Source of the DNA: Actinokineospora enzanensis DSM 44649
GTDB lineage: Bacteria; Actinomycetota; Actinomycetes; Mycobacteriales; Pseudonocardiaceae
Length of the DNA stretch: 64,000 nucleotides
NCBI RefSeq assembly: GCF_000374445.1
Contig: NZ_KB894403.1
Span: 458,435-522,434, forward strand
Direction of reading: 5' to 3'
Below the pieces are notes generated by a model that worked only from the letters and a program-made list of their open reading frames with translations, was not told the DNA's origin and did not search any database. Each line of letters opens with the position of its first letter. Position 1 is the first letter of the stretch. Position numbers and translations under genes: made by a program. Of this stretch, positions 3,415-29,905 are shown piece by piece.

Positions 3415-4439
3415 GCACCGACCACCCGCGGGCGTCCAGCCGGGCCGAGCGGCGCCGGGCGGTGGGCGCGCTGGCCCGCGGCACCGCGGCCAGGAACACC
3501 GCCGCCGCCAAGGGTTCCGGCACTCCCGACACACCCGCCAGTCCCGACGGGGTCGAGGCAGGCCAGGACGCCCGGCACCCGGGAACCCGGGCGGGCAAGG
3601 CGAAGCCGGACGGGCACGGCAACGCCGAGGACGGCACGTCGGCGGCCGACCGAGCGGCCTGGACCGGCAGCTCCGTGCGGACGCAGGTGTGGGTGCTCAC
3701 CACGCGCTCGCTCCGGGCCGCGTTCGGCAACTACCGGCTGGTGTTCTTCGGTTTCCTGCAGCCGGTCGTGCTGCTCCTGTTGTTCAGCCAGGTCTTCTCC
3801 GGCGTCAGCGCGCTGCCGGGGATGGCCCAGTACGCCGGCTACATCAACTACCTGATGCCCGCCACCCTGGTGAACATCGCGCTGCTCACCGCCATGGGCG
3901 CGGGCGCAGGCCTGATCGCCGAGACCTACTCGGGGGTGGTCGGCCGGTTCCGCAGCCTGCCGATCAGCCCGGTCTCGGTGCTGGTGGCCCGCACGTTCGC
4001 CGACACGGCCCGGCTCGCGGTCCAGCAGACCTCGATCGCGGTGGCGGCCGTGCTGTTCCTGGACTTCGCCCCGGACGGCGGCCCGCTCGGCCTGGCCGCC
4101 GCGATCCTGCTGACCCTGGTCGTCGGCTGGGGCCTGAGCTGGATCTTCGTGGCCATCGCCACCTGGCAGCGCAATGTCGAGCTGATGCAGGCGATCTCGT
4201 TCATCGCCATGTACCCGCTGATGTTCACCAGCAGCGCGTACATGCCGCTGCAGAGCATGCCCGCGTGGATCCGGGCGGTGGCCGCGGTGAACCCGCTGAC
4301 CTACGCGATCGACGCCACCCGCGCGCTCGCGCTTGGCCGGATCCCGGGCTGGTCGCTGCCACTGGCGGTGGGCCTTGCCCTGGTCGCCGCGCTCGCCGGG
4401 GCCGCAACCGCCGCCCGGAACTTCCGCCGGGTGACCTGA
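3411..4439 (+). CDS. ABC-2 type transporter permease, DrrB type
   Basis: This is the membrane half of the DrrAB-like exporter, 342 residues. The first ~80 residues are a hydrophilic Ala/Arg/Gly-rich leader, longer than in typical DrrB proteins. About six hydrophobic segments follow, for example around VFFGFLQPVVLLLLF, LVNIALLTAMGAG and the final LAVGLALVAALAGAA. The pattern of long membrane helices with a loop around RFRSLPISP is that of ABC-2 permeases. It is coupled to the ATPase gene by an ATGA overlap, and the regulator gene starts 12 bp downstream, so all three probably share one transcript. The substrate cannot be read from the sequence. Confidence 0.92.
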   Translation: MSTDHPRASSRAERRRAVGALARGTAARNTAAAKGSGTPDTPASPDGVEAGQDARHPGTRAGKAKPDGHGNAEDGTSAADRAAWTGSSVRTQVWVLTTRSLRAAFGNYRLVFFGFLQPVVLLLLFSQVFSGVSALPGMAQYAGYINYLMPATLVNIALLTAMGAGAGLIAETYSGVVGRFRSLPISPVSVLVARTFADTARLAVQQTSIAVAAVLFLDFAPDGGPLGLAAAILLTLVVGWGLSWIFVAIATWQRNVELMQAISFIAMYPLMFTSSAYMPLQSMPAWIRAVAAVNPLTYAIDATRALALGRIPGWSLPLAVGLALVAALAGAATAARNFRRVT

Positions 4440-4451
4440 CCGAGGACCGTC

Positions 4452-6314
4452 ATGACCATACGTATCGAGATCGTGGGCGCGCTGCGCGGCAGCCTGGACG
4501 ACGTGCCGGTGACCCCGTCGCAGCCCAAGCTGCGCAGGCTGCTTGCGCTGCTGGCGGCCAACCCGGGCACCGTGGTGCGACACGAGACGATCACCGACGA
4601 GCTGTGGTCCGGGCCGCCGTCGGCCAAGTACGCGCGGATCGTGCAGACCTACGTGTCCCAGCTGCGCAAGCTGTTCGGCACCGCCGACATCTGCGTGCAC
4701 ACCCCGAAGGTGGGCTACCGGCTGGCGCTCGCGCCGCCGGACTACCTCGACGCCGAGCATCTGCTTCGGTTGCGTGACAACGCCGAGTCGCACCTGCGCG
4801 CGCACGACACCGCGGCCGCGGCCGACGTGCTGGGCGCCGCGGTCGACCTGTGCCGGGGCGACGTGCTCTCGGACGTGTCGCTGGGGCCGGTGCTGCGCCG
4901 CGAGAAGACCCGCCTGGACCTCGTGCGGGTGGGCGTGCTGGAGCGGTACCTGCGGGTGCAGCTGGACCTCGGGCACCCCGAGGCCGTGCTGGCCCAGGTG
5001 GACCGGGTGATGCGGGAGGACCCGCGGCACGAGCAGCTCTACGCCTCGCTGCTGCTGGGGTTCGCGCACGCCGGGCAGCGGGCCCGCGCCACCGACCTGT
5101 TCCACGAGGTGCGCTCGCGGCTGGCCCGCGAGTCCGGCCTGGAACCGGGGCAGGCACTGCGGTCGGCGTTCGAGCAGGCGCTGCGCGACGAGCCCGCGCC
5201 CACCGGCGTCCTGCCGGGGCTCGGCTCGCCCGCGGGCGCGGTACGGCCGTTGCGCGGCCCGCGACGGGACCGGCCGGAGCAGGTGCTGCCCGCCGGGGAG
5301 GTGTTCGGGCACGACCCGCAGGCGGCGTTCGCGCGCGCCGAGCTGACCCGGTCCGCGCGCACCGGGCCCGCGGTGCTGGCCGTGGTGGGCGCGCCCGGCG
5401 TGGGCACGAGCACGTTCTGCGCGCGGGTGGCCGAGGAGGTGCGCGCGGCCTACCCGGACGGCAGGCTGCTGGCCGACCTGGCCGAGCACTCCCCCGCCCG
5501 GGTGCTCGGTGACTTCCTGCGCGCGCTGCGCCCGGACGCGCCCGTCCCGGACGGCCTGTCCGCGCGCGCGGCCCTGTTCCGCAGGCACACCAGAGACACC
5601 CGGCTGCTGGTGATGCTGGACAACGTGAACGACACGACCGACCTCACCGCGCTGACCCCGGGTTCGCCGGACAGCGCGCTGGTGCTGGGCTGCTCGTCGC
5701 GGCTGTCCGCGCCGGTGGTGTCGGTGGAGCTGCCGCGGATGTCCGGTGACGAGCTGCTCGCGCTGTTCGCCGCCCGGGTCGGCCCGGCCAGGGTGGAGCG
5801 CGAGCCCGCCGCCGCCTGGTCGCTGGTGACCCGCTGCGCGGGCCTGCCGCTGGTGGCCGCGGTGCTCGCCGAGCTGGCCCGGTTCCGTCCACATTGGTCA
5901 CTCGGGCGGCTGGCGCAGCGGCTGGCCGACCCGCCACCCGCGGCCGGGAAGCTCGACCTGGCCACGAGTGTGGCGCGCAGCGCCGCCGCGCTGGGCACCG
6001 CCGAGTGGGGCGCGCTGGCCCGGCTGGCGCACCGCGACGGTCGCCCCGACGCGGTGTCCGCGGAGTGGGTGAGCCGGGCGGTCGGCCTGCCCCGCGCGTC
6101 CGCCGCCGACCTGCTCGACCGGCTCACCTGGGTGCGCCTGGCCGACCCGGCGCCGCCGGGCAACTCGCGCGCGGGCATGCGGTATCGCATCGATCCGCTC
6201 TACCTGCGAGCGGTCCGCGAGCTGTGCGCGAGGTCCTCCAGGCGTGACACGACGGCCTGGGCGCCGCCCGCCCGGTCGAACGACGTGCGCACCCGGCAGG
6301 CCGCCTCCACGTAA
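4452..6314 (+). CDS. SARP/AfsR-type transcriptional activator with degenerate NTPase domain
   Basis: This is a 620-residue activator of the Streptomyces antibiotic regulatory protein type. Residues 1-95 form an OmpR-like winged-helix DNA-binding domain, about 100-245 a bacterial transcriptional activation domain, and 280 onward an NB-ARC-like NTPase module. The P-loop reads GAPGVGTST: the Lys of GxGK(S/T) is Thr (codon 5406-5408), so nucleotide binding is doubtful. A Walker-B-like stretch, LLVMLDNVND, remains. It follows the exporter genes by 12 bp and is the obvious candidate regulator for the polyketide genes; a matching heptamer repeat lies at 19460-19488. Its last 115 bases overlap the end of the converging glycosyltransferase gene. 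Confidence 0.92.
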   Translation: MTIRIEIVGALRGSLDDVPVTPSQPKLRRLLALLAANPGTVVRHETITDELWSGPPSAKYARIVQTYVSQLRKLFGTADICVHTPKVGYRLALAPPDYLDAEHLLRLRDNAESHLRAHDTAAAADVLGAAVDLCRGDVLSDVSLGPVLRREKTRLDLVRVGVLERYLRVQLDLGHPEAVLAQVDRVMREDPRHEQLYASLLLGFAHAGQRARATDLFHEVRSRLARESGLEPGQALRSAFEQALRDEPAPTGVLPGLGSPAGAVRPLRGPRRDRPEQVLPAGEVFGHDPQAAFARAELTRSARTGPAVLAVVGAPGVGTSTFCARVAEEVRAAYPDGRLLADLAEHSPARVLGDFLRALRPDAPVPDGLSARAALFRRHTRDTRLLVMLDNVNDTTDLTALTPGSPDSALVLGCSSRLSAPVVSVELPRMSGDELLALFAARVGPARVEREPAAAWSLVTRCAGLPLVAAVLAELARFRPHWSLGRLAQRLADPPPAAGKLDLATSVARSAAALGTAEWGALARLAHRDGRPDAVSAEWVSRAVGLPRASAADLLDRLTWVRLADPAPPGNSRAGMRYRIDPLYLRAVRELCARSSRRDTTAWAPPARSNDVRTRQAAST

Positions 6315-7381
6315 CCCGGATCGGAGATCACCGCGCGCAGCGCGGCGGCGATGTCGTCGGCGCGCGCGTGGTCGAAGCGCAGCCGCACGCCCGCGCCCGC
6401 GGTGACCACCTGGTCGGCCAGCACCGGCTGGTCGTCGCGGATCGGCGCGATCACCAACGGCACCCCGTTCGCCAGCGTCTCGCACACGGTGTTGTGCCCG
6501 CCGTGGCAGACCACCGCGGCGGCGCGCGGGATCAGGTCCAGCATCGGCGCCGCGGGCACCACGATCACGTCCCCGGACGCGGTCAGGAAGCCGCCGGGGT
6601 CGGCGATCACGCCCTGCAGGTCCGGCTGCTCGGTCAGCTCCGCCAGGGCCAGCGCGGCCTCGGCCAGGAACCGGCCGCCCGCCTCGGAGTTCGTCGTGCC
6701 CAGCGTCACCAGCACCAGCCGGGCGTCCGGGCGCAGCCGCGCCCAGGGGAACTCCACCGGGCGGCGGTGCGCCAGCGACGGACCGACGTACCGCGGGTCC
6801 TTCACCGCGACCACCGGCTCCCCGGCCAGCTCCACGGTGCTGAACACCACCGTCGAGTACGGCGAGAATCGCAGGTCGTCCTCGCCCGGCACGCCGTGCC
6901 TGGCGCGCAGGCCGCGCTGCTGCTCGCGCACCCAGTCGCCGATCTTGGGCAGCCCGCCGAGCGGGTCGGCCAGCTCCGCCGAGGTGCTGGCCGAGGTGAC
7001 CCAGGGCAGGCCGAGCCGCTCGGCGACCAGCGCGCCCGCGAACGTCTGCTGGTCCACCACGAGCAGGTCCGGGCCGAAGTCCTCGACCGCGGCCAGCACC
7101 CCGGGCACCATCGCGTCGGCCAGCGGCACCAGGAAGTCGGCCCACAGGAACCGCAGCGCGGCGAACGCCCGCAGGCCCGCGGGCCGCCGCTCCAGATAGG
7201 ACCCGGCGGGGTAGACCCGCTCCCCCACCAGGTCGCGCACGACCGGACACGGGCCGACCCAGGCGACCTCGTGCCCGCGTTCCATCGCCGCGGCGGCCAC
7301 CCCGATTAGTGGGTTGACGTGGCCTGCCAGCGGCGGTACGACGAACAACAGCCTGCTCATCCGCGGTGCTCTTTCATCCAC
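6200..7381 (-). CDS. Family 1 glycosyltransferase (macrolide/MGT type)
   Basis: This is a 393-residue GT-B-fold transferase of the UGT/MGT family, which moves an activated sugar onto a hydroxyl of a natural product. The N-terminal acceptor half begins VVPPLAGHVNP. The C-terminal donor half has the family signature around CHGGHNTVCETLANGVPLV, followed by DDQPVLADQV, where the Asp-Gln pair contacts the sugar. The start is the GTG at 7381, 5 nt after AGGAGGA; an internal ATG at 7360 is a weaker option. It is the last gene of the PUFA-type PKS operon, 52 bp after the hydrolase gene, so the expected substrate is the lipid-like polyketide. No deoxysugar genes are visible nearby, so the sugar probably comes from primary metabolism. 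Confidence 0.9.
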   Translation of the reverse strand: MDERAPRMSRLLFVVPPLAGHVNPLIGVAAAAMERGHEVAWVGPCPVVRDLVGERVYPAGSYLERRPAGLRAFAALRFLWADFLVPLADAMVPGVLAAVEDFGPDLLVVDQQTFAGALVAERLGLPWVTSASTSAELADPLGGLPKIGDWVREQQRGLRARHGVPGEDDLRFSPYSTVVFSTVELAGEPVVAVKDPRYVGPSLAHRRPVEFPWARLRPDARLVLVTLGTTNSEAGGRFLAEAALALAELTEQPDLQGVIADPGGFLTASGDVIVVPAAPMLDLIPRAAAVVCHGGHNTVCETLANGVPLVIAPIRDDQPVLADQVVTAGAGVRLRFDHARADDIAAALRAVISDPGYVEAACRVRTSFDRAGGAQAVVSRLEDLAHSSRTARR

Positions 7382-7433
7382 ACTGCTCCTCCTCCGCCGC
7401 TCCTGCTCGCGCCCGCGCCCGGCGGGCCGCTCC

Positions 7434-8231
7434 CTACCCGTCCGTGACGGGCGTGCCGTGCCTGCGCACCCAGTCCACGAGCAGCCCGCGCACCGCGCGG
7501 TGCTGCTCGACCAGCACCGAGTGGCCCTGGTCGTCGAACACGTAGAGCTCCCCGCGCGGCATCAGCGAGGTCAACGCGTCCAGGTCGTCGGACTGGTAGC
7601 CGTACCGGCCGAGGATGGACAGCACCGGGACCTCGATCGCGGACACGTCCTCGATCGACATCAGCGCCCCGGTCGGCACCTCGTCGGCCATCGTGGTGTC
7701 GGTGAACCGCTTGGCCGCCAGCCGGGCCAGCCGCCGGTGGTGCGCGCCGAAGTTGGCCTCGATCCAGTCGTAGTTCTCCTCGACCGACAGCATCTCCAGC
7801 GTCGCGGCCAGGGTGAAACGCATCTTCGTCGCCCAGATCTCGGTGGGCGGCTCGGACTCGATGGACACCACGCTGCGCACCCGCTCCGGGAACCGGGCCG
7901 CGAACGCGTAGGCGATGGTGCCGCCGAAGCTGTTGCCGACCAGGTGCACCCGGCGGTCCCCGACCAGCGCCACGATCAGCTCGTGCAGGTCGGCCACGAA
8001 GTCGGCCAGCGCGTAGCCGCTGACCGGCCGCTCGGACTTGCCGTGCCCGCGCAGGTCGTAGCTGATCACATCGATGCCCGCGGCGGCCACCGGCGGGGCC
8101 AGCGTCAGATAGAAGCTGGCCAGGCTGTCGGTGCCCATCCCGTGGATGAACACGACCGACTCGGTCGGCTCGCCCGCCCCGGACAGCACCTGGTAGTTGG
8201 TGCGCAGTCCGTTGACCTTCAGCTCCGGCAC
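7434..8231 (-). CDS. Alpha/beta hydrolase, possible chain-release thioesterase
   Basis: This is a 265-residue alpha/beta-hydrolase. The oxyanion region is FIHGMG, the nucleophile elbow GNSFGG carries Ser, and DQGHSV supplies the catalytic His near the C-terminus. No signal peptide is seen, so it is cytoplasmic. It starts with GTG directly after the ACP stop (TAG-GTG) behind GGAGGAGGA, so the two are translated together. Neither PKS protein of the operon carries a thioesterase domain. I therefore infer that this enzyme releases or edits the ACP-bound chain, although an epoxide or ester hydrolase role cannot be excluded. Confidence 0.88.
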   Translation of the reverse strand: MPELKVNGLRTNYQVLSGAGEPTESVVFIHGMGTDSLASFYLTLAPPVAAAGIDVISYDLRGHGKSERPVSGYALADFVADLHELIVALVGDRRVHLVGNSFGGTIAYAFAARFPERVRSVVSIESEPPTEIWATKMRFTLAATLEMLSVEENYDWIEANFGAHHRRLARLAAKRFTDTTMADEVPTGALMSIEDVSAIEVPVLSILGRYGYQSDDLDALTSLMPRGELYVFDDQGHSVLVEQHRAVRGLLVDWVRRHGTPVTDG

Positions 8232-8522
8232 CTAGTCCTCCTCCCGGAGGCGGTCGGCGACGTACTCGGCGATCTCGCCGACGGTCAGGCCGATGACGTC
8301 GTCGAGGTCGTACTCGGCCAGGTGCGCGGCCAGGTTGACCCGGGGGCCGAAGCGCTCGGCGAGCAGGCCGCCCAGGGTCACCAGGTCGATGCTCTCCAGA
8401 CCGAGGTCCTCGTGGAAGGCGGTGTCCCGGCGCACCTCGACGCCGAGGATGTCCAGGTCGTCGCCGACCAGGCCGCAGATCAGCTCGACGACGTCGTCGA
8501 ATACGGTGCTCGTGTCAATCAT
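8232..8522 (-). CDS. Free-standing acyl carrier protein
   Basis: This is a 96-residue acyl carrier protein with the phosphopantetheine site LGLESIDLVTL, where Ser carries the prosthetic group. ATG 8522 was chosen: the upstream part of the open frame lies inside the PKS gene and is not ACP-like, and this start overlaps the PKS stop by 8 nt. It sits between the DH-containing PKS and the alpha/beta hydrolase. The partner PKS proteins contain only one internal ACP, so this free carrier may hold the starter, the growing chain or the release intermediate. Confidence 0.92.
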   Translation of the reverse strand: MIDTSTVFDDVVELICGLVGDDLDILGVEVRRDTAFHEDLGLESIDLVTLGGLLAERFGPRVNLAAHLAEYDLDDVIGLTVGEIAEYVADRLREED

Positions 8523-11500
8523 CTCCGGTGGTCCTCTCCACTCGGGCGGAGACCGCGTTGGGCCCCGCGGGCGCGAGGGCGACCCGCAGCGCGGGCACCT
8601 CCAGGCCATGGTGTCCGGACACGCGGAGACGGTCGCCGTCCCCGGTAACCAGGATCTCGGCGGGGAACACCCGCTCCACCCCGTGCGCGGCCAGCCAGGC
8701 CCGCACGGCGTCCTTGGCGGCGAACCGCCCGAGCAGCCAGGCGCGCAGGTCCCGCGGCGGGACCGCCGCCAGCTCCGCGCGTTCGGGCTCGCTCAGGTAG
8801 ACCCCCACGAACAGGTCGCGGGCGGCCACGGTCGGCCACCGGTCCTCGACCCGCCACCAGCCGTCGGCCTGCGGCCGGGACAGCTTGTGGTCCTGTGGGA
8901 ACGCGTAGACGGCGTGGTCGGCGCGGTCGCAGTCGAGCCGCAGGTCGTGCCAGCCGGTGACGCGCGCCCACACCCGGCCGCCGGACAGCACGTCCGCGTC
9001 CATCTCCAGCGCCCGCTCGTCCGGGATCCGGGCGTCGGCGACGCAGTCCACCGCGGCGCCCAGTGGCGGGGGCGGGCCGTGGAAGGTGATCGAGTCGACC
9101 CGCACCGGGAACGCGAGCCTGCGCTCATCGGAGCGCACGTGCAGCCAGCAGGCCAGCATCTGGCCGACGTTGTCCAGCACGAAGCCGGGCGCGGGCAGCA
9201 CCTCGATCCGGCCGCACACCTTGTCCTCGGCGTGCGAGGTGACCTCGGTCAGGCCCTGGTACTGCGGGCCGTGGAACATCTGCCGCTCGTCGTAGATCTC
9301 CGTCGGGGTCAGCGCGGGGCCGACCTGCGGGCCCGGGTGCCTGCGCGGCTCCGGGGCGGGCGGGTAGCTGTCGGCGAGGTCCACCGTCATGCTCGCCGAC
9401 TCTCCCATGTGGACGGTGACGGGACCGTCCAGGACCGGCCGTTCCAGCCGGATCTCCAGGTCCTGCGCGGGTTCCGCGAGCGTCCAGCGGGTGAACCGGA
9501 TATCCCGCACGGTGACCGCGACCTGGCCGGGCCAGGCCTGTTCGGCGGCCCGCTGGGCCCACTCGACGAGCGTGGTGGCGGGCACCACGGGTCGGTAGTC
9601 GGACTCGTCGGGCCAGTCCGCGCGCTGCCGGAAGAACCGGTGGCTGCGCAGGTAGGGCATCGCGTCCACGGAGATCCGCAGCCGCGTGGTGCGGACCGTG
9701 CCGCCCTCCTCCACCGACACCGTCCGGGCGGGCGGGGCAGGCTCCACCGGCTTGTCCTGTGACACCTGGGTCTGTCCGGCCGCGGTGGGCCGGGCCGCCA
9801 GGGCGCGGCGGGGCGCGCGTTCCGGGCGCGGCCGGGCCTGGGCCACGGCGGCGACCACGGTGCGCACGGCGTCGTCGGTCTCGGTGATCAGCGCGGACAG
9901 CTCCGCGGCGATGTCGCCGGGAATCCCGGCGGGCAGGCTCGGACGCGGACCCGACCGGCGGTCGAGCATCCCGCGCACGGACTCGCCGACCGAGAGCGAG
10001 GAGGTGGTGACCCGTACCTCGATCTCCCCCATCGCCGAGGCCTTGCGCCCGGTGTCCTTCTTGTCCCTGCCACGAACACGCCGACCGGATGAATCCACAG
10101 CGGACTGTCCAGTCGACCGGACAGGGTCCAAAGCGGACAGGTCCGGATCGGCGCCCTCGACCCACAGCGCGGTCGCCAACCGACGCAGCTGCGCCACGCC
10201 GGGACGCGCCGAGGACGCGGCCGGGACGACCAGGTGCGGCCGGTCGGCCAGGGTGTCGGCCACGAACGAGCCGAGCTGGCCCGCTCCCATGTGGACGAAC
10301 ACGCGGTAGCCCTCGGCGTACATCCGGTCGACCAGCTCGCGGAACCGCACCGGCTTCAGCAGGTGGTCCGCGGACAGCCGGTACAGCTCCAAGGGGTCTT
10401 CCGGGTACCGGTCGGCGATGGTGGCCGACCAGATCGGCGCCGTGGTCGGCCGCACGCCGATCTCGGCGAACGCCGCCAGGTAGAGGTCGAGGTAGGGCGC
10501 CATCATCGGGGTGTGGAACCCGGTGCGGAACGGCAGCGGCCGGGCGAACACGCCCGCCTCGCGGAACCGGGCCGCCAGCCGCTCGATCGCCTCGCCCGGA
10601 CCGCACACGACCGTCTGCCGGGGCGCGTTGTCGTGCGAGAGCACGACGTCCGGCTCGTCGGCGATGCCCGCCATGGCCTCGTCGACCGAGCAGCCCAGCG
10701 CCAGGTAGTCCACCTCCGCCATGGGCAGGCCGACCAGGCCCGCACCCGGCCGCTCGTCCTGGTACATGCCCGCGGCCATGGACGCGGACCACTCGCCGAT
10801 GCTGTGCCCGGCGAACCCGTCCGCGTGCACGCCGAGCCGCAGCACCGCGTGGTGCAGCAGCACGCCCGCCACGGACACCGCCGCCACGTGCGCGCCGACG
10901 CTGTCGGTCTCGAACGTGGGCGGCTCGATGCCGAGCAGCGCGGCCACCTCGTCCATCCTGGGCGCGAAGTCGGCCTCCAGGCCGGGGAAGACGAACGCGG
11001 TCTTGGCCCCGGGCTCGCGCAGTAGCGGCGCGCCGGTGAACCAGACGTCGCCGGAGGACCAGGTCCAGCCGGGCTGGCCTGCGCGAGCCAGCACGCGGCG
11101 GGCCACCGACCGGCGCTTCTCGTCCGGCCCCACGATGCCCAGCCGGTAACGCCCGGCCGGGTCGCCCAGCGGCTCCGCCGTCGCACTGCCGTCGCCCGCG
11201 TGCCGGTCCAGCAGCTCGTCCAGCTCGCCCGGGTCGTCGGCGGCCAGCCGCAGCACGCGCTCCGGCTCGGCGATCGTCGTGCTCGCCCGTCGCGCCGGGC
11301 GGCTGACGTCCTGCTCGATGACCACGTGCGCGTTGATGCCGCCGAAGCCGAACGCGTTGACCGCGGCCCGGCGCGGGCCCACGCCATCCCACGGCTTGGC
11401 CGCGTCCAGCGGGTGGAACCGGGTCTTGGCCATCAGCGGGTTCGGTTCCGAGCAGTGCAGCGTGGGCAGCAGCACGCCGTGGTACACCGCCAGGGAGGAC

Positions 11501-12726
11501 TTGATCAGGCCCGCGATGCCCGCGGCAGGCATGGTGTGGCCGATCATCGACTTCACCGAGCCGATCACCGCCGAGGCCCCGGCCGGGGCGCCGAACACGT
11601 CGGCCAGCGCGGTCAGCTCGGCCGCGTCGCCCACCGGGGTGCCGGTGCTGTGCGCCTCGACCATGCCGACCGAGTCCGGCGCGGCCGGGTCCAGCCCGGC
11701 CGCGGCCCAGGCCATCCGCAGCGCCTTGCGCTGCCCGTCGGCGTCCGGGTTGAACAGGCTCTGCGTGCGGCCGTCGCTGGCCGAGCCGACGCCGCGGATC
11801 ACCGCGTAGACCCGGTCGCCGTCGCGGTGCGCGTCGGCGAGCCTGCGCAGCACCACCATGCCCGCGCCCTCGCCGATGAGCAGCCCGTCGGCGTCGGCCG
11901 ACAGCGGGCGGATGCACTCGGTCGGCGAGAGCGCGCGCAGCTGGCTGAACACGGCCCAGAACGAGTCGTCGTGGCCGTGGTAGACCCCGCCCGCCAGCAC
12001 CGCGTCGCAGCGGCCGGACATCAGCTCGTTCACCGCCTGGTCCACCGCCAGCAGCGAGGACGCGCAGGCGGCGTCCACGGTGTAGGCGGGGCCGCGCAGG
12101 TCCAGCCGGTTGGCCACCCGGGAGGCGGCCAGGTTCGGCACCAGGTTGATCGTCGACTCCGGCTGCATCGGGCCGAGCGACTCCTGCAGCGCGTCGCGCA
12201 GCCGGTCCAGCTCGGCGTCGGTGATGCCGGGGCTGAGCTCGCGCTGCATCCGCAGGAACATGCGGATCGCGCGGACCCGCAGGTCCAGGCCGACCATGCG
12301 CGGGCCGACGTAGCCGCCGCGGCCGAGGATCACGCCGACCCGGTCGGAGTCGCCCAGGGCGGACAGGCCGCCCGCGTCGGCCACCGCGGCGGCCGCGACC
12401 CGCAACGTGAGCAGCTGGTCGGGCTCCACGGTGTTGACCGAGTTGGGCATGATGCCCAGCGCGACGGCGTCCACGCCGAACGGGGCGAGGAACCCGCCCC
12501 GGTGGCAGTAGGTGCGGTCGGCGGGGACCGGGGCCATCGGGTCCGCGGTCTCGGCGTGGAAGAGCGGGTCGCGCCGCTCCTCCGGGATCGGGGTGATGGC
12601 GTCGAAGCCGGTGCGCAGGTTGTGCCAGTAGGTGTCCAGGTCCGGCGCGCCGGGCAGCATCACCGCCATCCCGACGACCGCGACCGCGGCGGGCCCTCCG
12701 GCCGATGGGGCAGACACCGGCGTCAC
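8515..12726 (-). CDS. Iterative type I PKS, KS-AT-DH with C-terminal PPTase-like domain (HglE/PUFA type)
   Basis: This 1403-residue protein has a ketosynthase at about 15-470 (Cys221 in DAACASS, His359 in EAHSTGTP, His397 in GHTMPAAG, all present). An acyltransferase-like domain lies at about 575-860, with Ser642 in GHSIGEW and FHTPMM; the usual GQGSQ is replaced by GLEAD. After a long linker comes a hotdog dehydratase (about 1010-1270, with DNVGQ as the second catalytic motif). The last ~110 residues, with GRFAAKDAVRAWL, resemble the C-terminal phosphopantetheinyl-transferase-like domain of enediyne and PUFA-like synthases. The usual upstream GIDVE metal motif is not visible there. The start is the GTG at 12726, overlapping the preceding stop (GTGA). 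The architecture matches the HglE/PfaC side of iterative lipid PKSs and should work with the upstream protein on shared ACPs. Confidence 0.9.
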   Translation of the reverse strand: MTPVSAPSAGGPAAVAVVGMAVMLPGAPDLDTYWHNLRTGFDAITPIPEERRDPLFHAETADPMAPVPADRTYCHRGGFLAPFGVDAVALGIMPNSVNTVEPDQLLTLRVAAAAVADAGGLSALGDSDRVGVILGRGGYVGPRMVGLDLRVRAIRMFLRMQRELSPGITDAELDRLRDALQESLGPMQPESTINLVPNLAASRVANRLDLRGPAYTVDAACASSLLAVDQAVNELMSGRCDAVLAGGVYHGHDDSFWAVFSQLRALSPTECIRPLSADADGLLIGEGAGMVVLRRLADAHRDGDRVYAVIRGVGSASDGRTQSLFNPDADGQRKALRMAWAAAGLDPAAPDSVGMVEAHSTGTPVGDAAELTALADVFGAPAGASAVIGSVKSMIGHTMPAAGIAGLIKSSLAVYHGVLLPTLHCSEPNPLMAKTRFHPLDAAKPWDGVGPRRAAVNAFGFGGINAHVVIEQDVSRPARRASTTIAEPERVLRLAADDPGELDELLDRHAGDGSATAEPLGDPAGRYRLGIVGPDEKRRSVARRVLARAGQPGWTWSSGDVWFTGAPLLREPGAKTAFVFPGLEADFAPRMDEVAALLGIEPPTFETDSVGAHVAAVSVAGVLLHHAVLRLGVHADGFAGHSIGEWSASMAAGMYQDERPGAGLVGLPMAEVDYLALGCSVDEAMAGIADEPDVVLSHDNAPRQTVVCGPGEAIERLAARFREAGVFARPLPFRTGFHTPMMAPYLDLYLAAFAEIGVRPTTAPIWSATIADRYPEDPLELYRLSADHLLKPVRFRELVDRMYAEGYRVFVHMGAGQLGSFVADTLADRPHLVVPAASSARPGVAQLRRLATALWVEGADPDLSALDPVRSTGQSAVDSSGRRVRGRDKKDTGRKASAMGEIEVRVTTSSLSVGESVRGMLDRRSGPRPSLPAGIPGDIAAELSALITETDDAVRTVVAAVAQARPRPERAPRRALAARPTAAGQTQVSQDKPVEPAPPARTVSVEEGGTVRTTRLRISVDAMPYLRSHRFFRQRADWPDESDYRPVVPATTLVEWAQRAAEQAWPGQVAVTVRDIRFTRWTLAEPAQDLEIRLERPVLDGPVTVHMGESASMTVDLADSYPPAPEPRRHPGPQVGPALTPTEIYDERQMFHGPQYQGLTEVTSHAEDKVCGRIEVLPAPGFVLDNVGQMLACWLHVRSDERRLAFPVRVDSITFHGPPPPLGAAVDCVADARIPDERALEMDADVLSGGRVWARVTGWHDLRLDCDRADHAVYAFPQDHKLSRPQADGWWRVEDRWPTVAARDLFVGVYLSEPERAELAAVPPRDLRAWLLGRFAAKDAVRAWLAAHGVERVFPAEILVTGDGDRLRVSGHHGLEVPALRVALAPAGPNAVSARVERTTGDD

Positions 12727-15700
12727 ACCCAGGCCGTGTACACGACCGCGCGGCTGTCCGGGCCGCCGTGGGTGAGCTCGCGCATCAGGCAGTCGGTGCC
12801 CTCCTCCGGGTCGATCAGCCGGATGCCGCGCCGGTCCAGGTCGCGGGCCAGCTCGTCGGACACCATCCCGGTGTGCTCGCCGCTGGGCACCCACGGTCCC
12901 CAGTGCACGGTCACCACCCGGCAGCCGGTGCGCTCGGCGAACGCGGTGCCCAATGTCTCCAGCGAGTCGTTGCCCGCCGCGTAGTCGATCTGGCCGGGGT
13001 TGCCGAACACGCCGGACACGCTGCCGAAGAACAGCGTCAGGCCGGGTCGCACGCCCGCCTCGGTGATCCCGTCGAGCAGCGCCCGCGCGCCGTCGACCTT
13101 GGTCGAGTAGACGAAGCGGAACGACTCGTCGTCCTTGTCCAGCATCAGCTTGTCGTCCAGCACGCCGGAGGCGTAGACGACCGCGTCGAGCCTGCCGTGC
13201 CGGGCGTGCACGTCCTTGATCAGCTGCCGCACCGCGGCGCCGTCGCGCACGTCGACCTGCCGGTAGTCCACCCGGCCGCCCGCCGCGCGGATCTGGGCGA
13301 CGGTCGAGGACACCTCGCGCTGGGTCACGATGGCGCGCACCGCGCGCTCGATCTCCGGCAGCGGCGTGCCGCCCGCGGCCAGCGCGGCGCGCAGGCCGTT
13401 CTCGTCGGCGGTGGCCAGCTCCGGCGACAGCGCCGACTCCGGCGGCCAGGGCGTCCGGCCGGCCAGTTCCAGCTGGCAGCCCGCGGCGGCGGCCAGGGCG
13501 ATGCCGCACCGGGCGGTGATGCCGCGCGCGCCGCCGAGGACCAGCACGACCGAGTCGCGGTCCAGGCCCAGCTCGCCCGCGCCCGCCGCGTCCAGCTCGG
13601 CCTCGACCACCTCGAAGGTGAACCGGTCGGTGCCGCTGTGCCGGACCACCGGCAGCTCGGCCCGATCGGCCAGCTCGCCCGCCAGCAGCCTGGCCAGCGC
13701 GACGGGGTCGATGTCCGGCTCCACCTCGACCAGACGGGCCAGCAGGTCCGGCCGCTCGACCTGCACCGAGCGCAGCATCCCGCGCAGCCCGGCGGTGTGC
13801 GTGGGCGCCTGCCCGGCCTCGTGCGGGGTGACGACCACCAGCGTGCCGGTACCCGCGGCCACCGCGTCGCGCAGGGTGGCGAACACCTGCGGCGCGATCG
13901 GCTCGTCGGCCGGGGTCAGCGGAGTGAGCAGGACCAGGGTGTCGGCGTCGTCGGTCGTGGTGGTGGCGCCGTGCGCGGTCACCATCTCGGCGACCGCGGC
14001 CGCGTGCTCGATCCGGGAGGGGTCGTGCACCACGCGCACCCGCTTGCCGGACAGGTCGGGCGCCGCCGCCACCGCGGCCGTGGGTACCGCGCGCTGCAGG
14101 AACCGGCGCGGCCGCACCCCGGTGATCTCCCGTTCGACGACCGGCGCGGGCGCGGCGCCGATGCCCATGCGCTCCTCCAGCCAGTACGCCATGGCCTGCG
14201 CGCTGCGCCTGCGGTGCAGCTCGTCGTGCACCGTGCCCTCGACGGTCACGCCGAGCTTGGCGATCAGCGTGCCCGCGATCTCGGTGCGCTTGATCGAGTC
14301 GATGGACAGGTCGGCCTCCAGGTCGAGGTCGCCGTCGATCATCTCCGGCGGGTAGCCGGTCCGCGCGCTGATCACCTCGACCACCGCGGCCAGCACGTCC
14401 ACCGGACCGTCCACAACGGACACCTCGGCGACCGCGTCGGCGGGGGCCGCCGCGGCCTCGGTGAGCGCGGGCGCCTGCTCCAGCACCGGGGCCGCCGCCA
14501 TCAGCACCGGCGCGGCCGGGGCGAGCGGCGCGGCGGGGGCGGCGGCCGCGGCGCCGAAACCGAGGTAGCCGAGCAGCACGTCGCGCTGCGCGGTGACCAT
14601 CTCCCGGTTGGTGCGCAGGAAGGCGGCGACGACCTCGTCGCGGGGGTCGCGCTCGGTGGACGTGGTGTCGGTTGACATCAGGGACCTCGTGATTCGTCGG
14701 GCGGGGACCAGGGCCCCGGGCGGGATGGTGCCGTCGGCGCGGCGGACCAGCTGGCCGTCGACCGTCCAGGGGGCGACGCCCGCGGCGGGCGTCGCGGCCG
14801 ACAGGGTCCGGTCGCGGCCGCGCACGAGCCAGTCGGTGTCGACCGGCACCCCCGCGGCGGCCAGCCGGGCGAGCGCGGTCAGCAGGCCGCGCAGTCCTGG
14901 GGCGCCGGGGTCGGTGGCCACGGCGGTGTGCGGGGCGTCGCCGAGGATCGCGCCGACCAGGCCGGTGAGCACCGAGCCGGGGCCGACCTCGACGAAGGTG
15001 CGCGCGCCCGCGGCGTGCATGGCGCGCACCTGCTCGACGAAGCGCACCGGCGAGGCGACCTGGGCGGCCAGCTCGGCCCGAACGTCCGCACCGGACCCCG
15101 TCTCCGGGGATTCCGGGGACCCGTAGGGCGCCGCGGTCCGGTTGGCGTACACCGGGAGCCGGGGCGCGCGCAGGTCCTCCTCGGCCAGTGCGGCGGCGAA
15201 CAGGTCGGCGGCGGGCGCCACCACGGCGCTGTGGAACGCGCAGGCGACCGGGAGCCGCTTGGCGGACAGTCCCTCGCCGCTCAGCCGTTCCACCGCGGCG
15301 GTCACCCGCTCGGTCGGACCGGACAGCACGATCTGCTCGGGGCCGTTGTGGTTGGCCAGCACCACGTCGCCGTCCAGGTCCCACTCCCGCAGCAGCGCGG
15401 CGACCGTGTCGGCGGGCGCGCGCACGGCGGCCATGGTGCCCGGATCGGCGCCCGCCGCGGTCATGATCGCCTCGGCCCGCCGGGCGCTGAGCCGCAGCAG
15501 GGTGGCCCGGTCGAACGCGCCCGCCGCGGCGAGCGCGACCAGCTCGCCGTAGCTGTGCCCGCCCAGCAGGTCCGCGCGCACGCCCACCCTGGTGAGCAGC
15601 TCGTGCACGGCCGTGCCCGCGATCCCGAGCGCGGGCTGGGCGGCGCGGGTGTCGCGCAGCGCGACGTCCTGTTCCGCGGCGGCGTCCGGGTGGAACGCGG

Positions 15701-18700
15701 TGGGCGGGAACATCAGCGGGGCGACCGCGTCGGCCGCGCCGTCCAGGCTCGCGCGCAGGTCCGGGAACGCGACGAACAGGTCGGCGAGCATGCCGGTGCG
15801 CTGGCTGCCCTGGCCGGGGAACAGGAACGCCACCTTGCCGGGGTCGGCGTCGGGCACGGCCGGGAACAGCGCCCGGTCCGGCCTGCCGTCGACCGCCGCG
15901 GCCAACGCCCGCGCCAGCTCGGCGTGGTCGCGCGCCACGACGGCGAACTTCACCGGCTCCCGCCGCGGCCAGGACGACACCAGGGCCGCGAGGTCCGCCA
16001 GCGACCGCGCCCCGCTGCCGACCGCGTCCGTGGTGAACGCCAGCAGGTCCTTGACCGCCGAGACCGAGCGCAGCAGGAACAGCTCGGCGTCCCAGTCGCG
16101 CAGCGCGTGCCGGTCCAGCGGGCCGCCGGGGCCGGTGGTCAGCACGGCGTGGAAGTTGGTGCCGCCGAAGCCGAACGCGCTCACCCCGGCCACCCGCCGC
16201 TCACGCGGCGTCAGCCACGGCCGCGACGAGGTGCTGAAGGTGAACGGGCTGCGCTCGCGATCCCAGCCCGCGACCGGCTCGGACACGTGCAGGGTCGGCG
16301 GGATGACGCCGAACCACAGCGACAGCGCGGTCTTGATCACGCCTGCCAGGCCTGCCGCACACTTGGCGTGCCCGATCTGGCTCTTCACCGAGCCCAGCGC
16401 GCAGGACGCGGGCGCGGCGCCCGCGTCGGCGAAGAACCCGGTCAGCGTGGCCAGCTCGGTACCGTCGCCGACCACCGTGCCGGTGCCGTGCGCCTCGACC
16501 AGCCCGACTGTCGCCGGGGACACGCCCGCCATCCGGTACGCCCGCTCCATCGCCCGCCGCTGGCCCTCCGGGCGCGGGGCGGTGAGGCCGAGGGAGCGGC
16601 CGTCGCTGGCCGTGCCGACACCGCGGACCACCGCATAGACCCGGTCGCCGTCGCGTTCGGCGTCGGCCAGCCGCTTGAGCACCAGGCAGGCCACGCCCTC
16701 GCCAAGCGAGATACCGTCGCTGTCGCTGCTGAACGGCCTGCACCGGCCGGTGGGCGAGAGCGCGCCTGCCGAGGTGAACGCCAGGTAGTCGGCGATGCCG
16801 TTGTGCACGTCCACCGCGCCGCACAGCACCATGTCGCTGCCCTCGTGCGCGAGGTCCCGGCAGGCCAGGTCCAGCGCGGCCAGCGAGGAGCCGCAGGCGG
16901 CGTCCACGGTGAAGTTGGCGCCGCCCAGGTCGAGCCGGTTGGCGATGCGGCCCGCGATGACGTTGGTGAGCGTGCCGGGGAAGGAGTCCTCGGTCACCAT
17001 CGGCAGCTGCGCCAGCAGCTCGTCCGGCAGACCGTCCAACCAGGACGGCAGCAGCGCGCCCGCGATGTTGGCGTTGGCCAGGTCGCCGCCCGCCTCCGCG
17101 CCGAAGATCACGCTGGTGCGCTCGCGCGGGAAGGCGCGGTCCAGGTAGCCCGCGTCGGCCAGCGCGCGGCGGGCCACCTCCAGCGAGAGCAGCTGGGCCG
17201 GGTCGATGCTGCCCATGGACGCGGGCGGGATGCCGAAGGAGGTCGGGTCGAACGGCACCTGCGGCAGGAAACCGCCCCACTTGGACGGGGTCGTCCCGCG
17301 TTCGCCGCCGCCCTGGCGGAAGAAGATGCGCGAGTCCCAGCGGTCCGGCGACACCTCGGTCACCTCGTCGCGGCCGCGCAGGATCCCCGACCAGAACCCG
17401 GGCAGGTCGGTGGTGCCGGGGAACACGCACGCCATGCCGACGATCGCGACGTCGACCGGGGCCAGCTCCGGCTCCTCCACCCGCGCCTGCACGAACTGCC
17501 TGGCGCCCAACAGGTCCGCGGCGTCCGCGGTCACCTGGCGGTGCAGGGTGGCGATGTCGGTCAGCTCGTCGCGCAGCACCGCGACCTGGCCGACCATGTA
17601 CATGCCCTCGGCGACCTGGCCGTCCTCGTCCACCCGGACCAGCTCCGCGCCCTCGCGGCGCAGGCCCTTGCTGGCGATGCGCAACCGGCCGACGTTGAGC
17701 TCCTCCAGCACCTGCCACCGGTCCCGCACGGACACGCCGCGCTCGGTGAGGTCGGCGGCGACGGCCTGGAACTGGTCGACGAACGGGCTCGGCAGGCACC
17801 GGGTCTCGTGGCCGGGCGCGGTGCGCACGGTGACGGTGCGGTCGGCGTCCATCACCTCGCGCTGGTACCGGCCGGTGATCGCGCCGTGCCGCACGGCCTC
17901 CTCGGTGAACAGGTAGGCGGTGCCCATCAGCACGCCGATCCCGGCGCCCCGGCGGGCGGCTGGCGCGGCCATCGCGGCCACCGCGGCGGCGGAGACCTCG
18001 TCGTGCACGCCACCGGCGAACAGGACCTCCACATCGGACACGTCGGCCCGCTCGGCCAGCACGCCGAGCTGGGCCTCCCACAGCGAGAAGCTGGAGCGTG
18101 GGCCGATGTGGCCGCCGCACTCCATGCCCTCGAACACGAACCGGCGCACGCCCTGGTCGAGGAACTGGCCCAGCAGCGTGGGCGATGGCACGTGCAGGTA
18201 GGCGGTGATGCCCTCGGCCTCCAGGGCGGCGGCCTGCGCCGGGGTGCCGCCCGCGACCAGCACGCTGGCCGGGCGCACCGCGCGGATCGCGGCCAGCTGG
18301 GCGGCGCGCAGCTCCTCGGGGACGAAGCCCAGGATGCCCGCGCCCCAGGGGCGGTCACCGAGCAGGTCACCGGTCTCTCTCAGCAGTGCCTCGGTGCGCG
18401 GGCCGTCGGCGAGGGCGACCGCGACATACGGCATGGCGCCCTGCTCGGCCACCGCGAGGGCGAACCCGGGCTGGTCGCTCACCCGGGTCATCGGGCCCTG
18501 CGCGATGGCGTGCTCGACACCGAGCGACCGGCACACCGGGGCGCCCTGCGCGCGCGGGTCGACATCGACGCCCGCGGTGTCCAGGTCCCGTTGCAGGGCA
18601 CGCACGAACGCCTCGGCCGAGCGGTAGCGGCCCGCGAGGCTCGACGCGAGGTGGGCGTCCTCGCCGAGCGGCAGGTCGGTGCCGCGCAGCACCCGGTGGC

Positions 18701-19322
18701 CGTCCCGCAGTTCGGTCTCGGTGCCATCCGCGGCGGCCAGTCGGGCACGCGATTCGGACGACAGGTCGCTTTCGGTGAAAAGCCCCAATTGGCTGTCCAG
18801 CACGACACCCGCCGCGCCCACCGCCACCGCGCCGAGCGCGGTGTGCGGGCCGATTCCGCCGCGCACCCACACCGGGGCGTCCAGCGGCAACAACCGTTGC
18901 AGCAGCACGAACGAGGTCAGCTCGCCGACCGCACCCGCGGCCTCGACCCCCACCGCCACCAGCCCGTGCGCGCCCGCGTCCAGCGCGGCGCGCGCGGCGT
19001 CGACCTCGGTCACCTCCACCAGGACCGGCAGGTGCGCCGCCACCTCCGCGACCGACCACGGCGCGTCCGGGCCGAGCACCACCAGTTCCACGCCGTGCCC
19101 GGCCAGGTCGGCCGGGGACAGCGGGCAGCCGGGCCGCACCCGGGCGCCGACCCGGTCGGCCAACCCGGCCGCGCGGGCCAGGACGGCCGGGGCGTCGGCG
19201 TCCAGGTCGAGCACCCCCAGTCCGCCGCCCCGGCCGACAGCGCCCGCCAGCCGCGGGTCGGGCAGCTCGAAGGGGCTCATCCCGAGCACGCGCCACCGGG
19301 CACCGACCTGCGCGTCCGACAT
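12723..19322 (-). CDS. Iterative type I PKS with N-terminal nitronate-monooxygenase-type ER: NMO(x2)-KS-AT-ACP-KR
   Basis: This 2199-residue multidomain protein starts at ATG 19322, 4 nt after AGGAGG. Residues 1-235 look like a degenerate FMN-type TIM barrel (VRGGIGPHTALG). Residues 255-530 form a second, better conserved nitronate-monooxygenase barrel (QGPMTRVSD, EGMECGGHIGP, FAGGVHD), the PfaD type of enoylreductase. The KS spans 622-1070 (Cys810, His945, His985) and the AT 1163-1460 (Ser1257 in GHSYGE, His1364). One ACP lies at about 1640-1720, with the PUFA-type motif SIDSIKRTEI (Ser1676). A KR follows to the end, with GGARGIT, SGVLDDK, FGSVSG and an intact Tyr in DYAAGND. Family knowledge points to iterative synthesis of a reduced lipid-like chain. 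The ER is normally a separate protein (PfaD), so its fusion in front of the KS is notable. A Met with GAGG upstream (14678) opens the ACP-KR part. Confidence 0.92.
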   Translation of the reverse strand: MSDAQVGARWRVLGMSPFELPDPRLAGAVGRGGGLGVLDLDADAPAVLARAAGLADRVGARVRPGCPLSPADLAGHGVELVVLGPDAPWSVAEVAAHLPVLVEVTEVDAARAALDAGAHGLVAVGVEAAGAVGELTSFVLLQRLLPLDAPVWVRGGIGPHTALGAVAVGAAGVVLDSQLGLFTESDLSSESRARLAAADGTETELRDGHRVLRGTDLPLGEDAHLASSLAGRYRSAEAFVRALQRDLDTAGVDVDPRAQGAPVCRSLGVEHAIAQGPMTRVSDQPGFALAVAEQGAMPYVAVALADGPRTEALLRETGDLLGDRPWGAGILGFVPEELRAAQLAAIRAVRPASVLVAGGTPAQAAALEAEGITAYLHVPSPTLLGQFLDQGVRRFVFEGMECGGHIGPRSSFSLWEAQLGVLAERADVSDVEVLFAGGVHDEVSAAAVAAMAAPAARRGAGIGVLMGTAYLFTEEAVRHGAITGRYQREVMDADRTVTVRTAPGHETRCLPSPFVDQFQAVAADLTERGVSVRDRWQVLEELNVGRLRIASKGLRREGAELVRVDEDGQVAEGMYMVGQVAVLRDELTDIATLHRQVTADAADLLGARQFVQARVEEPELAPVDVAIVGMACVFPGTTDLPGFWSGILRGRDEVTEVSPDRWDSRIFFRQGGGERGTTPSKWGGFLPQVPFDPTSFGIPPASMGSIDPAQLLSLEVARRALADAGYLDRAFPRERTSVIFGAEAGGDLANANIAGALLPSWLDGLPDELLAQLPMVTEDSFPGTLTNVIAGRIANRLDLGGANFTVDAACGSSLAALDLACRDLAHEGSDMVLCGAVDVHNGIADYLAFTSAGALSPTGRCRPFSSDSDGISLGEGVACLVLKRLADAERDGDRVYAVVRGVGTASDGRSLGLTAPRPEGQRRAMERAYRMAGVSPATVGLVEAHGTGTVVGDGTELATLTGFFADAGAAPASCALGSVKSQIGHAKCAAGLAGVIKTALSLWFGVIPPTLHVSEPVAGWDRERSPFTFSTSSRPWLTPRERRVAGVSAFGFGGTNFHAVLTTGPGGPLDRHALRDWDAELFLLRSVSAVKDLLAFTTDAVGSGARSLADLAALVSSWPRREPVKFAVVARDHAELARALAAAVDGRPDRALFPAVPDADPGKVAFLFPGQGSQRTGMLADLFVAFPDLRASLDGAADAVAPLMFPPTAFHPDAAAEQDVALRDTRAAQPALGIAGTAVHELLTRVGVRADLLGGHSYGELVALAAAGAFDRATLLRLSARRAEAIMTAAGADPGTMAAVRAPADTVAALLREWDLDGDVVLANHNGPEQIVLSGPTERVTAAVERLSGEGLSAKRLPVACAFHSAVVAPAADLFAAALAEEDLRAPRLPVYANRTAAPYGSPESPETGSGADVRAELAAQVASPVRFVEQVRAMHAAGARTFVEVGPGSVLTGLVGAILGDAPHTAVATDPGAPGLRGLLTALARLAAAGVPVDTDWLVRGRDRTLSAATPAAGVAPWTVDGQLVRRADGTIPPGALVPARRITRSLMSTDTTSTERDPRDEVVAAFLRTNREMVTAQRDVLLGYLGFGAAAAAPAAPLAPAAPVLMAAAPVLEQAPALTEAAAAPADAVAEVSVVDGPVDVLAAVVEVISARTGYPPEMIDGDLDLEADLSIDSIKRTEIAGTLIAKLGVTVEGTVHDELHRRRSAQAMAYWLEERMGIGAAPAPVVEREITGVRPRRFLQRAVPTAAVAAAPDLSGKRVRVVHDPSRIEHAAAVAEMVTAHGATTTTDDADTLVLLTPLTPADEPIAPQVFATLRDAVAAGTGTLVVVTPHEAGQAPTHTAGLRGMLRSVQVERPDLLARLVEVEPDIDPVALARLLAGELADRAELPVVRHSGTDRFTFEVVEAELDAAGAGELGLDRDSVVLVLGGARGITARCGIALAAAAGCQLELAGRTPWPPESALSPELATADENGLRAALAAGGTPLPEIERAVRAIVTQREVSSTVAQIRAAGGRVDYRQVDVRDGAAVRQLIKDVHARHGRLDAVVYASGVLDDKLMLDKDDESFRFVYSTKVDGARALLDGITEAGVRPGLTLFFGSVSGVFGNPGQIDYAAGNDSLETLGTAFAERTGCRVVTVHWGPWVPSGEHTGMVSDELARDLDRRGIRLIDPEEGTDCLMRELTHGGPDSRAVVYTAWV

Positions 19323-29254: not shown

Positions 29255-29905
29255 ATGCTGATCACACAGCTGGTGCCCGCGGCCGTGCGCGCGGTCGAGT
29301 GGTTCGGGGACCGGCCGGACGCGACCGTCTTCCCCGGCGAGGACGGTCACCTGCGCCGCGGCGACAGCGCCCGGCGCCGGGAGTTTGCCACGACCCGGGC
29401 CTGCGCGCGCGAGGCGCTCGCCGGGTTGGGTGTGCGGCCGGGGCCGATACCGGTGGGCGCCGACCGGTCGCCCGGCTGGCCCGCGGGCGTCGTGGGCAGC
29501 CTGACGCACTGCGCCTGCTACCGGGCCGCCGCCGTCGCCAACAGCCGGGCGGTGCGGTCCGTGGGGATCGACGCCGAACCCGCCCATCCCCTGCCCCGTC
29601 GGGTACTGGAGCGCGTGACCACGCAGGCCGAGCGGGCTGCGCTGCCCGCGGATATCCACCCGTTGGACCGGGTGCTGTTCTCCGCCAAGGAGACCCTGTT
29701 CAAGGCCTGGTATCCCATCACCCGCCGCTACCTCGGGTTCCTGGACGCCACAGTCGAGATCCGGCCGCCGCACCGGTTCCTGGCCAGGATCCTGGTCGAC
29801 GACTGCCCGACGAGCCTCCGCGGCCTGCTGACCGGCCGCTACATCGTGGAGCGCGGCCTGGTGATCACCGCGTTGACCGTGCCGCACGAAGGGGAGCGAT
29901 CGTGA
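29255..29905 (+). CDS. 4'-phosphopantetheinyl transferase (EntD/Sfp superfamily)
   Basis: This 216-residue enzyme transfers phosphopantetheine from CoA to the Ser of carrier proteins, activating ACP/PCP domains. The Mg-binding motif is VGIDAE and the second motif is FSAKETLFKAWYP. An upstream VGSLTHCACYRAA matches the substrate-binding SH.....A region of this family. It can serve the ACPs in this window (PKS, 8232, 33666) and any carrier of the condensation enzymes. It is coupled by GTGA overlap to the kinase-like gene downstream. Confidence 0.93.
   Translation: MLITQLVPAAVRAVEWFGDRPDATVFPGEDGHLRRGDSARRREFATTRACAREALAGLGVRPGPIPVGADRSPGWPAGVVGSLTHCACYRAAAVANSRAVRSVGIDAEPAHPLPRRVLERVTTQAERAALPADIHPLDRVLFSAKETLFKAWYPITRRYLGFLDATVEIRPPHRFLARILVDDCPTSLRGLLTGRYIVERGLVITALTVPHEGERS

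Follow-up and report, generated by a model that had tools for sequence, protein, structure and literature searches.

Locus and operon layout

The DNA analysed here, a 64,000-nucleotide stretch of the genome of Actinokineospora enzanensis DSM 44649 (G000:C1:458435-522434, part of an 8.1-Mb genome; hereafter the window), contains five coupled minus-strand genes within positions 19322-6200. They encode two large polyketide synthase (PKS) proteins, PKS1 and PKS2, an acyl carrier protein (ACP), an alpha/beta hydrolase and a GT1 glycosyltransferase (GT). An earlier note on this DNA had proposed this five-gene set on one strand, and open reading frame (ORF) and Pfam analysis found all five genes where it had placed them; the Pfam scan covered 44 of the 51 called genes of the window. 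PKS1 starts with an ATG that has AGGAGG upstream, and the GTG start of PKS2 overlaps the PKS1 stop by 4 bp (GTGA). The ACP gene overlaps PKS2 by 8 bp and adjoins the hydrolase gene with a gap of 0 bp. The gap between the hydrolase and GT genes is 73 bp, or 52 bp if GT starts at GTG 7381. The operon and its domains are as follows.

12723..19322, minus strand: PKS1, 2199 aa, tandem NMO/FabK-like enoyl reductase (ER) - ketosynthase (KS) - acyltransferase (AT) - ACP - ketoreductase (KR), a PfaD-PfaA-like fusion (ORF, Pfam, NCBIfam)
18678..19322, minus strand: PKS1 residues 1-215, first FabK/NMO-like barrel, here without Pfam recognition (profile match, model)
17565..18521, minus strand: PKS1 residues 268-586, second barrel, the Pfam NMO domain (ER) (Pfam, model, Foldseek)
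16284..17453, minus strand: PKS1 KS, catalytic C810/H945/H985 (Pfam, KS trees, alignment)
14235..14387, minus strand: PKS1 ACP, single copy, DSIKRTEI, Ser1676 (Pfam, alignment)
12891..13550, minus strand: PKS1 KR (Pfam)
8515..12726, minus strand: PKS2, 1403 aa, GTG start, KS - AT - PKS-type dehydratase (DH) - truncated remnant of a phosphopantetheinyl transferase (PPTase) (ORF, Pfam, alignment, model)
8935..9699, minus strand: PKS2 DH, residues 1010-1264, His1029/Asp1185 (alignment, model, Foldseek)
8518..8829, minus strand: PPTase remnant at the PKS2 C-terminus (profile comparison with relatives, motif search)
8232..8522, minus strand: free ACP (ORF, Pfam PP-binding, alignment)
7434..8231, minus strand: alpha/beta hydrolase, putative release enzyme, GNSFG nucleophile motif (Pfam Abhydrolase_1, alignment)
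6200..7360, minus strand: GT1 glycosyltransferase, MGT/YjiC-like (Pfam EryCIII-like_C/UDPGT, NCBIfam, alignment)

Domain organization of the synthase proteins

Pfam recognized NMO, KS, AT, PP-binding and KR domains in PKS1. The KS, AT, ACP and KR calls of the earlier note are thereby retained, and its single NMO domain is replaced by two NMO/FabK-like barrels. The first ~215 residues of PKS1 match the second barrel in a profile-profile comparison (probability 97.3, E 2.4e-11), and the predicted structure of the N-terminal part (623 residues) contains two runs of eight strands. This model was built from a 10-row alignment and has a mean predicted local distance difference test score (pLDDT) of 82.3 and a predicted template modeling score (pTM) of 0.86; its top Foldseek matches are FabK (TM by target ~0.8), with PfaD among the matches.

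For PKS2, Pfam reported KS, AT and a weak PKS_DH_N domain, in a scan of the product read from an internal ATG, which lacks the first 19 residues. The fold of the DH region, by model and Foldseek, resembles PKS dehydratases; the model of the C-terminal part is of modest confidence (mean pLDDT 68.2, pTM 0.55), and the DH part alone was used. The "PPT-like" domain previously assigned to PKS2 proved to be a truncated remnant: the beginning of a PPTase domain is kept and its catalytic half is gone. The Pfam ACPS family (PF01648) was not matched at the PKS2 end in the window and is above the cut-off in the relatives from Streptomyces (L101) and Bacteroidales (L021). In a motif search of 59 PKS2 rows, some of which are cut, the PPTase motifs G[IV]D[IVL]E and KEAxxK were both present in 17 and at least one of them in 21; neither occurs in any of the seven Actinokineospora rows (the window and six sister species). 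A stand-alone PPTase gene lies at window positions 29255-29905; its product is PptT-like and scores under the cut-off of the PptT model. Such an enzyme could stand in for the lost PPTase domain and act on the carrier proteins. A tRNA-His call by ARAGORN (11620-11708, plus strand), antisense within PKS2, was taken as a false positive.

The GT matches the NCBIfam MGT model TIGR01426 under its cut-off, and its best solved match is the UDP-glucosyltransferase YjiC.

Conservation of the five-gene core

Relatives of the PKS1 N-terminal region are common: it was matched in 167 of 390 sampled genomes of the same family (E <= 1e-40) and in 54 of 394 genomes sampled across the class (E <= 1e-60). We read 70 loci, namely the window, 11 genome contigs, 60 stretches from the listed matches and one plasmid record, minus three duplicates. 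The full order PKS1-PKS2-ACP-hydrolase-GT was found by script in 60 of the 70, and a direct ORF check added L133, L144 and L021. As L013 and L019 run into contig ends, 68 loci are assessable, and the gene-order comparison suggested earlier thus gives the complete order in 63 of 68, including the window and a Bacteroidales metagenome-assembled genome (MAG; L021) with 38% identity to PKS1.

The catalytic residues were compared in an alignment that leaves out reference loci and short rows. All 67 PKS1 rows keep the KS C/H/H and AT S/H residues and the His of the second barrel; the ACP Ser is present in 66 and the KR Tyr in 59 of the 67, the remainder being gaps. The KS C/H/H, AT S/H and DH H/D residues of PKS2 are invariant (55/55 rows). 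The hydrolase nucleophile is Ser in 59 rows and Cys in four, with its His in all 63, and both His14 (one gap) and His286 of GT are found in 62 of 63 rows. The GT and ACP counts refer to alignment columns; narrower motif expressions had matched 32 and 22 of 63. Since both gene order and catalytic residues are near-invariant across the loci, release and glycosylation belong, on this comparative evidence, to the synthase family. This bears out the earlier proposal that they share one operon with chain building, the hydrolase and GT being regular members across the class and in one Bacteroidota MAG.

The genes behind GT vary. In eight scanned loci they encode a methyltransferase (four loci), a WS/DGAT acyltransferase, an ABC exporter, an AMP-ligase or a weak GHMP-kinase match, as expected for a core with variable decoration. 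In Streptomyces sp. NBC_00984 the set lies on a record named as a plasmid, and an S-adenosylmethionine methyltransferase gene stands behind GT. Three GT matches follow in a row behind the Bacteroidales operon (L021:22357-27179), hinting at a multiply glycosylated product.

Relation to known lipid synthases

The best NCBIfam match of PKS1 is TIGR02813 (PfaA), the model of the polyunsaturated fatty acid (PUFA) synthase, at 826.7 bits and under the curated cut-off of 1010.1. A different protein of the same genome, which serves as a positive control, exceeds this cut-off (1197.8 bits, C32); the cut-off was passed in none of 14 named control genomes. This PfaA-type protein appears as two parts at contig ends (C32:86012-90049 and C70:1-2685), which probably belong to a single PUFA-type synthase that the assembly broke at the ACP repeats.

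The PfaD-like feature, an FMN-type FabK/NMO enoyl reductase, is present in PKS1, fused and doubled. No tandem ACP array was found by Pfam, which gave one PP-binding match in PKS1 and one free ACP. Neither a pair of KS and chain length factor (CLF) nor a FabA-like dehydratase/isomerase was found in PKS2, which has one KS with intact C/H/H, an AT and a PKS-type DH. A PUFA synthase proper was rejected on these grounds: PKS1 is below the PfaA cut-off and has a single ACP, and the system lacks a CLF and a FabA-type DH. The present operon nevertheless shares KS kinship and the PfaD-like ER fold with the PfaA-E synthases.

In a careful KS tree of 55 rows, including ten modular KSs of which two come from PKSs of the same locus (see below), the PKS1 KSs form one clade (100/98) that is sister to a Type P KS from Beijerinckia (98/92), with PfaA next (91/66). 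PKS1 thus groups with KSs of secondary lipid synthases, the support on successive nodes being 94/94, 91/66 and 98/92. The modular KSs and the PKS2 KSs each form their own clade (100/100 for both), and the deep order of the PfaC, PKS2 and modular KSs is unsettled. A quick tree had put these three in one clade (SH-aLRT 95), on which we place no weight. A grouping of PKS1 with ordinary modular PKSs, named beforehand as evidence against the proposed family, was looked for, and the KS fell with PfaA and Type P instead; a constraint joining PKS1 with modular KSs was rejected (p-AU 0.030 in an approximately unbiased test under LG+G4, run once the quick tree had been inspected). Of the earlier assignment to PUFA-type synthases, the secondary-lipid kind stands by the KS trees, and strict PUFA membership falls by cut-off and domain content.

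Secondary lipid synthases were divided into Types A-T by Shulse and Allen in 2011 (PMC3098273). Type M, described from Actinosynnema, Frankia, Renibacterium and S. avermitilis, has no known product (PMC3098273), and a fused pfaDA with a pfaBC that carries a PPTase is described as closely resembling the Renibacterium cluster (PMC13291983). Because this pfaDA + pfaBC/PPTase architecture is the one found here, the synthase is filed as Type M-like by anatomy, with an eroded PPTase, a likeness drawn from published descriptions. The two share the fused pfaD-pfaA in the domain order of PKS1, the actinobacterial range and the absence of a known product, and the fused pfaB/C protein carries a PPTase domain in relatives of PKS2. 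They differ in that the Type M PPTase in or next to pfaBC is reduced to a remnant in the window and six sister species, and in that the GT and hydrolase are regular members here, whereas "glycosyl" and hydrolase go unmentioned in the available text of the Type M description (PMC3098273).

In the careful tree, the closest named KS to that of PKS1 (98/92) belongs to Type P, known from Azotobacter phenolic lipids and represented by the Beijerinckia pBIND02 record (L102; 52% identity over the KS). Unlike the present operon, Type P is accompanied by two genes of KAS-III type and has its PPTase encoded separately, and the record has no match to the ACP, hydrolase or GT models used here. The heterocyst glycolipid (hgl) synthase has a KS-CLF-AT protein without DH, whereas our operon has no CLF and a DH. 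A hybrid cluster of Ottowia thiooxydans is alike by description in its fused pfaD-pfaA, its fused pfaBC without a KS-CLF pair and its GT, and differs by additional PKS-NRPS (nonribosomal peptide synthetase) and NAPAA-type NRPS genes (PMC13291983). No described cluster of known product matching the locus was found in the open-access literature searched.

The Actinokineospora island

The extent of the locus as first noted was too small, for the conserved unit is a 36-kb island of 17 genes (C1:444821-481056), whose left border lies 13.6 kb outside the window and whose right border is at window position 22622. All 17 genes are present in each of six relatives (G007, G008, G010, G013, G016 and G019) at 61-87% identity; the in-window part of the left PKS, treated as a separate row, has 54-69%. 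In the flanks of the relatives, compared over lengths of a few kb up to about 10 kb, no counterpart with 50% identity was found for any of the next four genes on the left or the next 19 on the right. By these comparisons the island is sharply bounded and kept as a unit in seven Actinokineospora species. Chance clustering of unrelated genes is ruled out by the conservation of both the operon order and the island.

Besides the operon, the island contains a subtilisin-like protease, two type I PKSs, sulfation genes, an ABC-2 transporter pair, a SARP (Streptomyces antibiotic regulatory protein) regulator, a short-chain dehydrogenase/reductase (SDR), an aldo/keto reductase (AKR) and a LysR regulator:

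G000:C1:444821-458434 (L009:4822-18435), left of the window: two type I PKSs, subtilisin-like protease and sulfation genes, conserved in six relatives
1..2212, plus strand: left type I PKS, 3' part (ER-KR-ACP in the window; the gene begins at C1:455802)
2329..3414, plus strand: ABC transporter ATPase
3411..4439, plus strand: ABC-2 transporter membrane protein
4452..6314, plus strand: SARP/AfsR-like regulator (Pfam, NCBIfam)
19597..20433, plus strand: SDR oxidoreductase, divergent (Pfam)
20437..21447, plus strand: AKR (Pfam)
21651..22622, plus strand: LysR regulator, right-hand end of the island

One type I PKS has KS, AT, a weak KR and ACP, and the other has KS-DH-ER-KR-ACP; no AT was found in L167, an orthologue of the latter. 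The sulfation genes encode a sulfotransferase of the type that uses 3'-phosphoadenosine 5'-phosphosulfate (PAPS), an adenosine 5'-phosphosulfate (APS) kinase fused to an inositol-monophosphatase-like domain, and an arylsulfotransferase. By Pfam, the PAPS-type enzyme belongs to the Sulfotransfer_4 family and the arylsulfotransferase to the ASST family, and both have solved relatives in one deposit series (9kf1/9kf2 and 9kf4/9kf6). Judged by eye, an in-frame signal-peptide-like stretch precedes the called start of the arylsulfotransferase, with similar starts in six relatives.

In caprazamycin biosynthesis the PAPS-dependent partner in sulfation is Cpz8. The two-step sulfation there has a PAPS-type sulfotransferase and an arylsulfotransferase in one cluster, and the island holds the same pair, a likeness drawn by enzyme families. 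The caprazamycin arylsulfotransferase Cpz4 favours sugar hydroxyls (PMC13426309), and sulfate is relayed from PAPS via a type III PKS pyrone (PMC4924298). In contrast, the other PKSs of the island, which stand beside the sulfation enzymes, are type I. No type III PKS for a sulfate carrier is present in the island, and no search for one was made elsewhere in the genome.

To the right of the island lies a second gene cluster with type II-like KSs, an ACP, condensation-domain proteins, cytochromes P450 and acyl-CoA dehydrogenases. Two of its NodU-like carbamoyltransferase genes are at window 31944-33617 and L010:9242-10924, and it also encodes an alpha-L-rhamnosidase-like protein (window 58804-61206).

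Proposed product and alternative explanations

The locus encodes a secondary-lipid synthase of Type M architecture that is widespread and uncharacterised; release and glycosylation are part of its core, and here it stands in a sulfation-bearing island. We suggest, with a probability of roughly 0.55, that the island directs the biosynthesis of an exported glycolipid that in Actinokineospora is probably sulfated on its sugar. This reading is built on the gene content, the integrity of domains and catalytic residues, the conservation of the operon, the island borders and the signal-peptide-like arylsulfotransferase start, all seen directly in the sequences; from them we infer the chain length, reduction pattern, sugar, sulfate and all functions.

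PKS1 and PKS2 would act as one iterative synthase in which KS, AT and ACP domains lengthen the chain. Its reduction by the KR, the DH of PKS type and the tandem FMN-type ER would go to different extents, so that some hydroxyls persist. Handover and release would fall to the free ACP and the hydrolase, the chain being freed by hydrolysis or passed to an alcohol, and the GT could glycosylate a hydroxyl, probably with UDP-glucose or a similar housekeeping donor, before export by the ABC-2 transporter. In Actinokineospora the APS kinase would make PAPS, and its phosphatase-like domain may remove the by-product 3'-phosphoadenosine 5'-phosphate. The PAPS-type sulfotransferase would sulfate a carrier, for which the pair of type I PKSs nearby may be the source, and from this carrier the apparently secreted arylsulfotransferase would transfer the sulfate to the sugar outside the cell.

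Several observations weigh against this reading. Two loci (L119 and L136) have the synthase without ACP, hydrolase or GT matches, and L109 lacks the GT; L017 and L018, both incomplete, keep the GT without a recognized ACP, and L018 also without a recognized hydrolase or PKS2. The PKS2 KS has no firm placement in the careful tree. The sugar donor is a guess, because the Pfam scan of 44 of the 51 window genes revealed no NDP-sugar gene. Outside the genus, the sulfotransferase relatives are not near PKS1 among the matches listed in the family search. G094, moreover, has SARP and ABC genes close to the operon but no sulfation block there. The block may therefore have to do with a different product.

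The latter points lead to a scenario of two adjoining pathways, possible though rather unlikely, in which the core with the exporter, SARP, SDR and AKR makes a plain glycolipid, and the type I PKSs and sulfation genes make a separate sulfated polyketide that is merely co-inherited. It would fit the occurrence of the core without the block outside the genus (G094 and G136, among the matches listed) and the fact that the block has KS-bearing modular-type PKSs of its own. It is opposed by the inheritance of the whole stretch as one bounded unit without conserved flanks in all seven species, and by the presence of a sulfotransferase orthologue in exactly the seven of 16 genus genomes that have a close PKS1 orthologue. 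We consider even less probable a self-protective role for the GT, like that of macrolide-inactivating enzymes, with the sugar as a temporary shield on a secreted active aglycone. The GT does have a match under cut-off to the MGT model and weak ones, likewise under cut-off, to self-immunity GTs such as OleI; yet it is the last operon gene in nearly all loci and of one subfamily, no beta-glucosidase-like partner was found among the scanned genes of the conserved island, and the Bacteroidales locus has three consecutive GTs. Least credible is a PUFA-like synthase that supplies a free fatty acid for the membrane, with the hydrolase and GT incidental. Although the PKS1 KS adjoins PfaA in the tree and PfaA is its best NCBIfam match, albeit below the cut-off, the conservation of the hydrolase and GT extends to their catalytic residues, the FabA-type DH/isomerase, CLF and ACP array are missing, and the genome holds another protein above the PfaA cut-off.

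Glucosylated long-chain hydroxy fatty acids are known from Actinobacteria. In the cycloviracins and fattiviracins, glucosylated trihydroxy fatty acids, listed with chain lengths from C22 to C33, are joined into macrodilactones, and the glucolipsins are simpler macrodilactones (PMC4365757); their link to the operon is a chemical analogy. The cycloviracin producer Kibdelosporangium albatum, now Allokutzneria albata, also belongs to Pseudonocardiaceae, and we found no gene cluster for cycloviracin, fattiviracin or glucolipsin in the accessible text of open-licence PMC papers. A weak lead is the mass annotation of glucolipsin A in an extract of a co-culture of A. spheciospongiae with Rhodococcus (table entries -, -, +; PMC7918646). 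We speculate, and hold it doubtful, that the core is the missing biosynthetic type for such lipids, with the hydrolase as a dimerising acyltransferase, and that the Actinokineospora lipid is sulfated extracellularly, the type I PKS pair replacing a type III PKS as carrier maker.

Relatives of PKS1 are common in the family, and the published type that they resemble has no known product. With release and GT genes in the conserved unit, what looked like a cryptic PUFA-like cluster yields a specific glycolipid prediction that can be tested, and the borders of the island define the exact DNA of the unit. The sulfation relay, if true, would parallel the caprazamycin system in a lipid.

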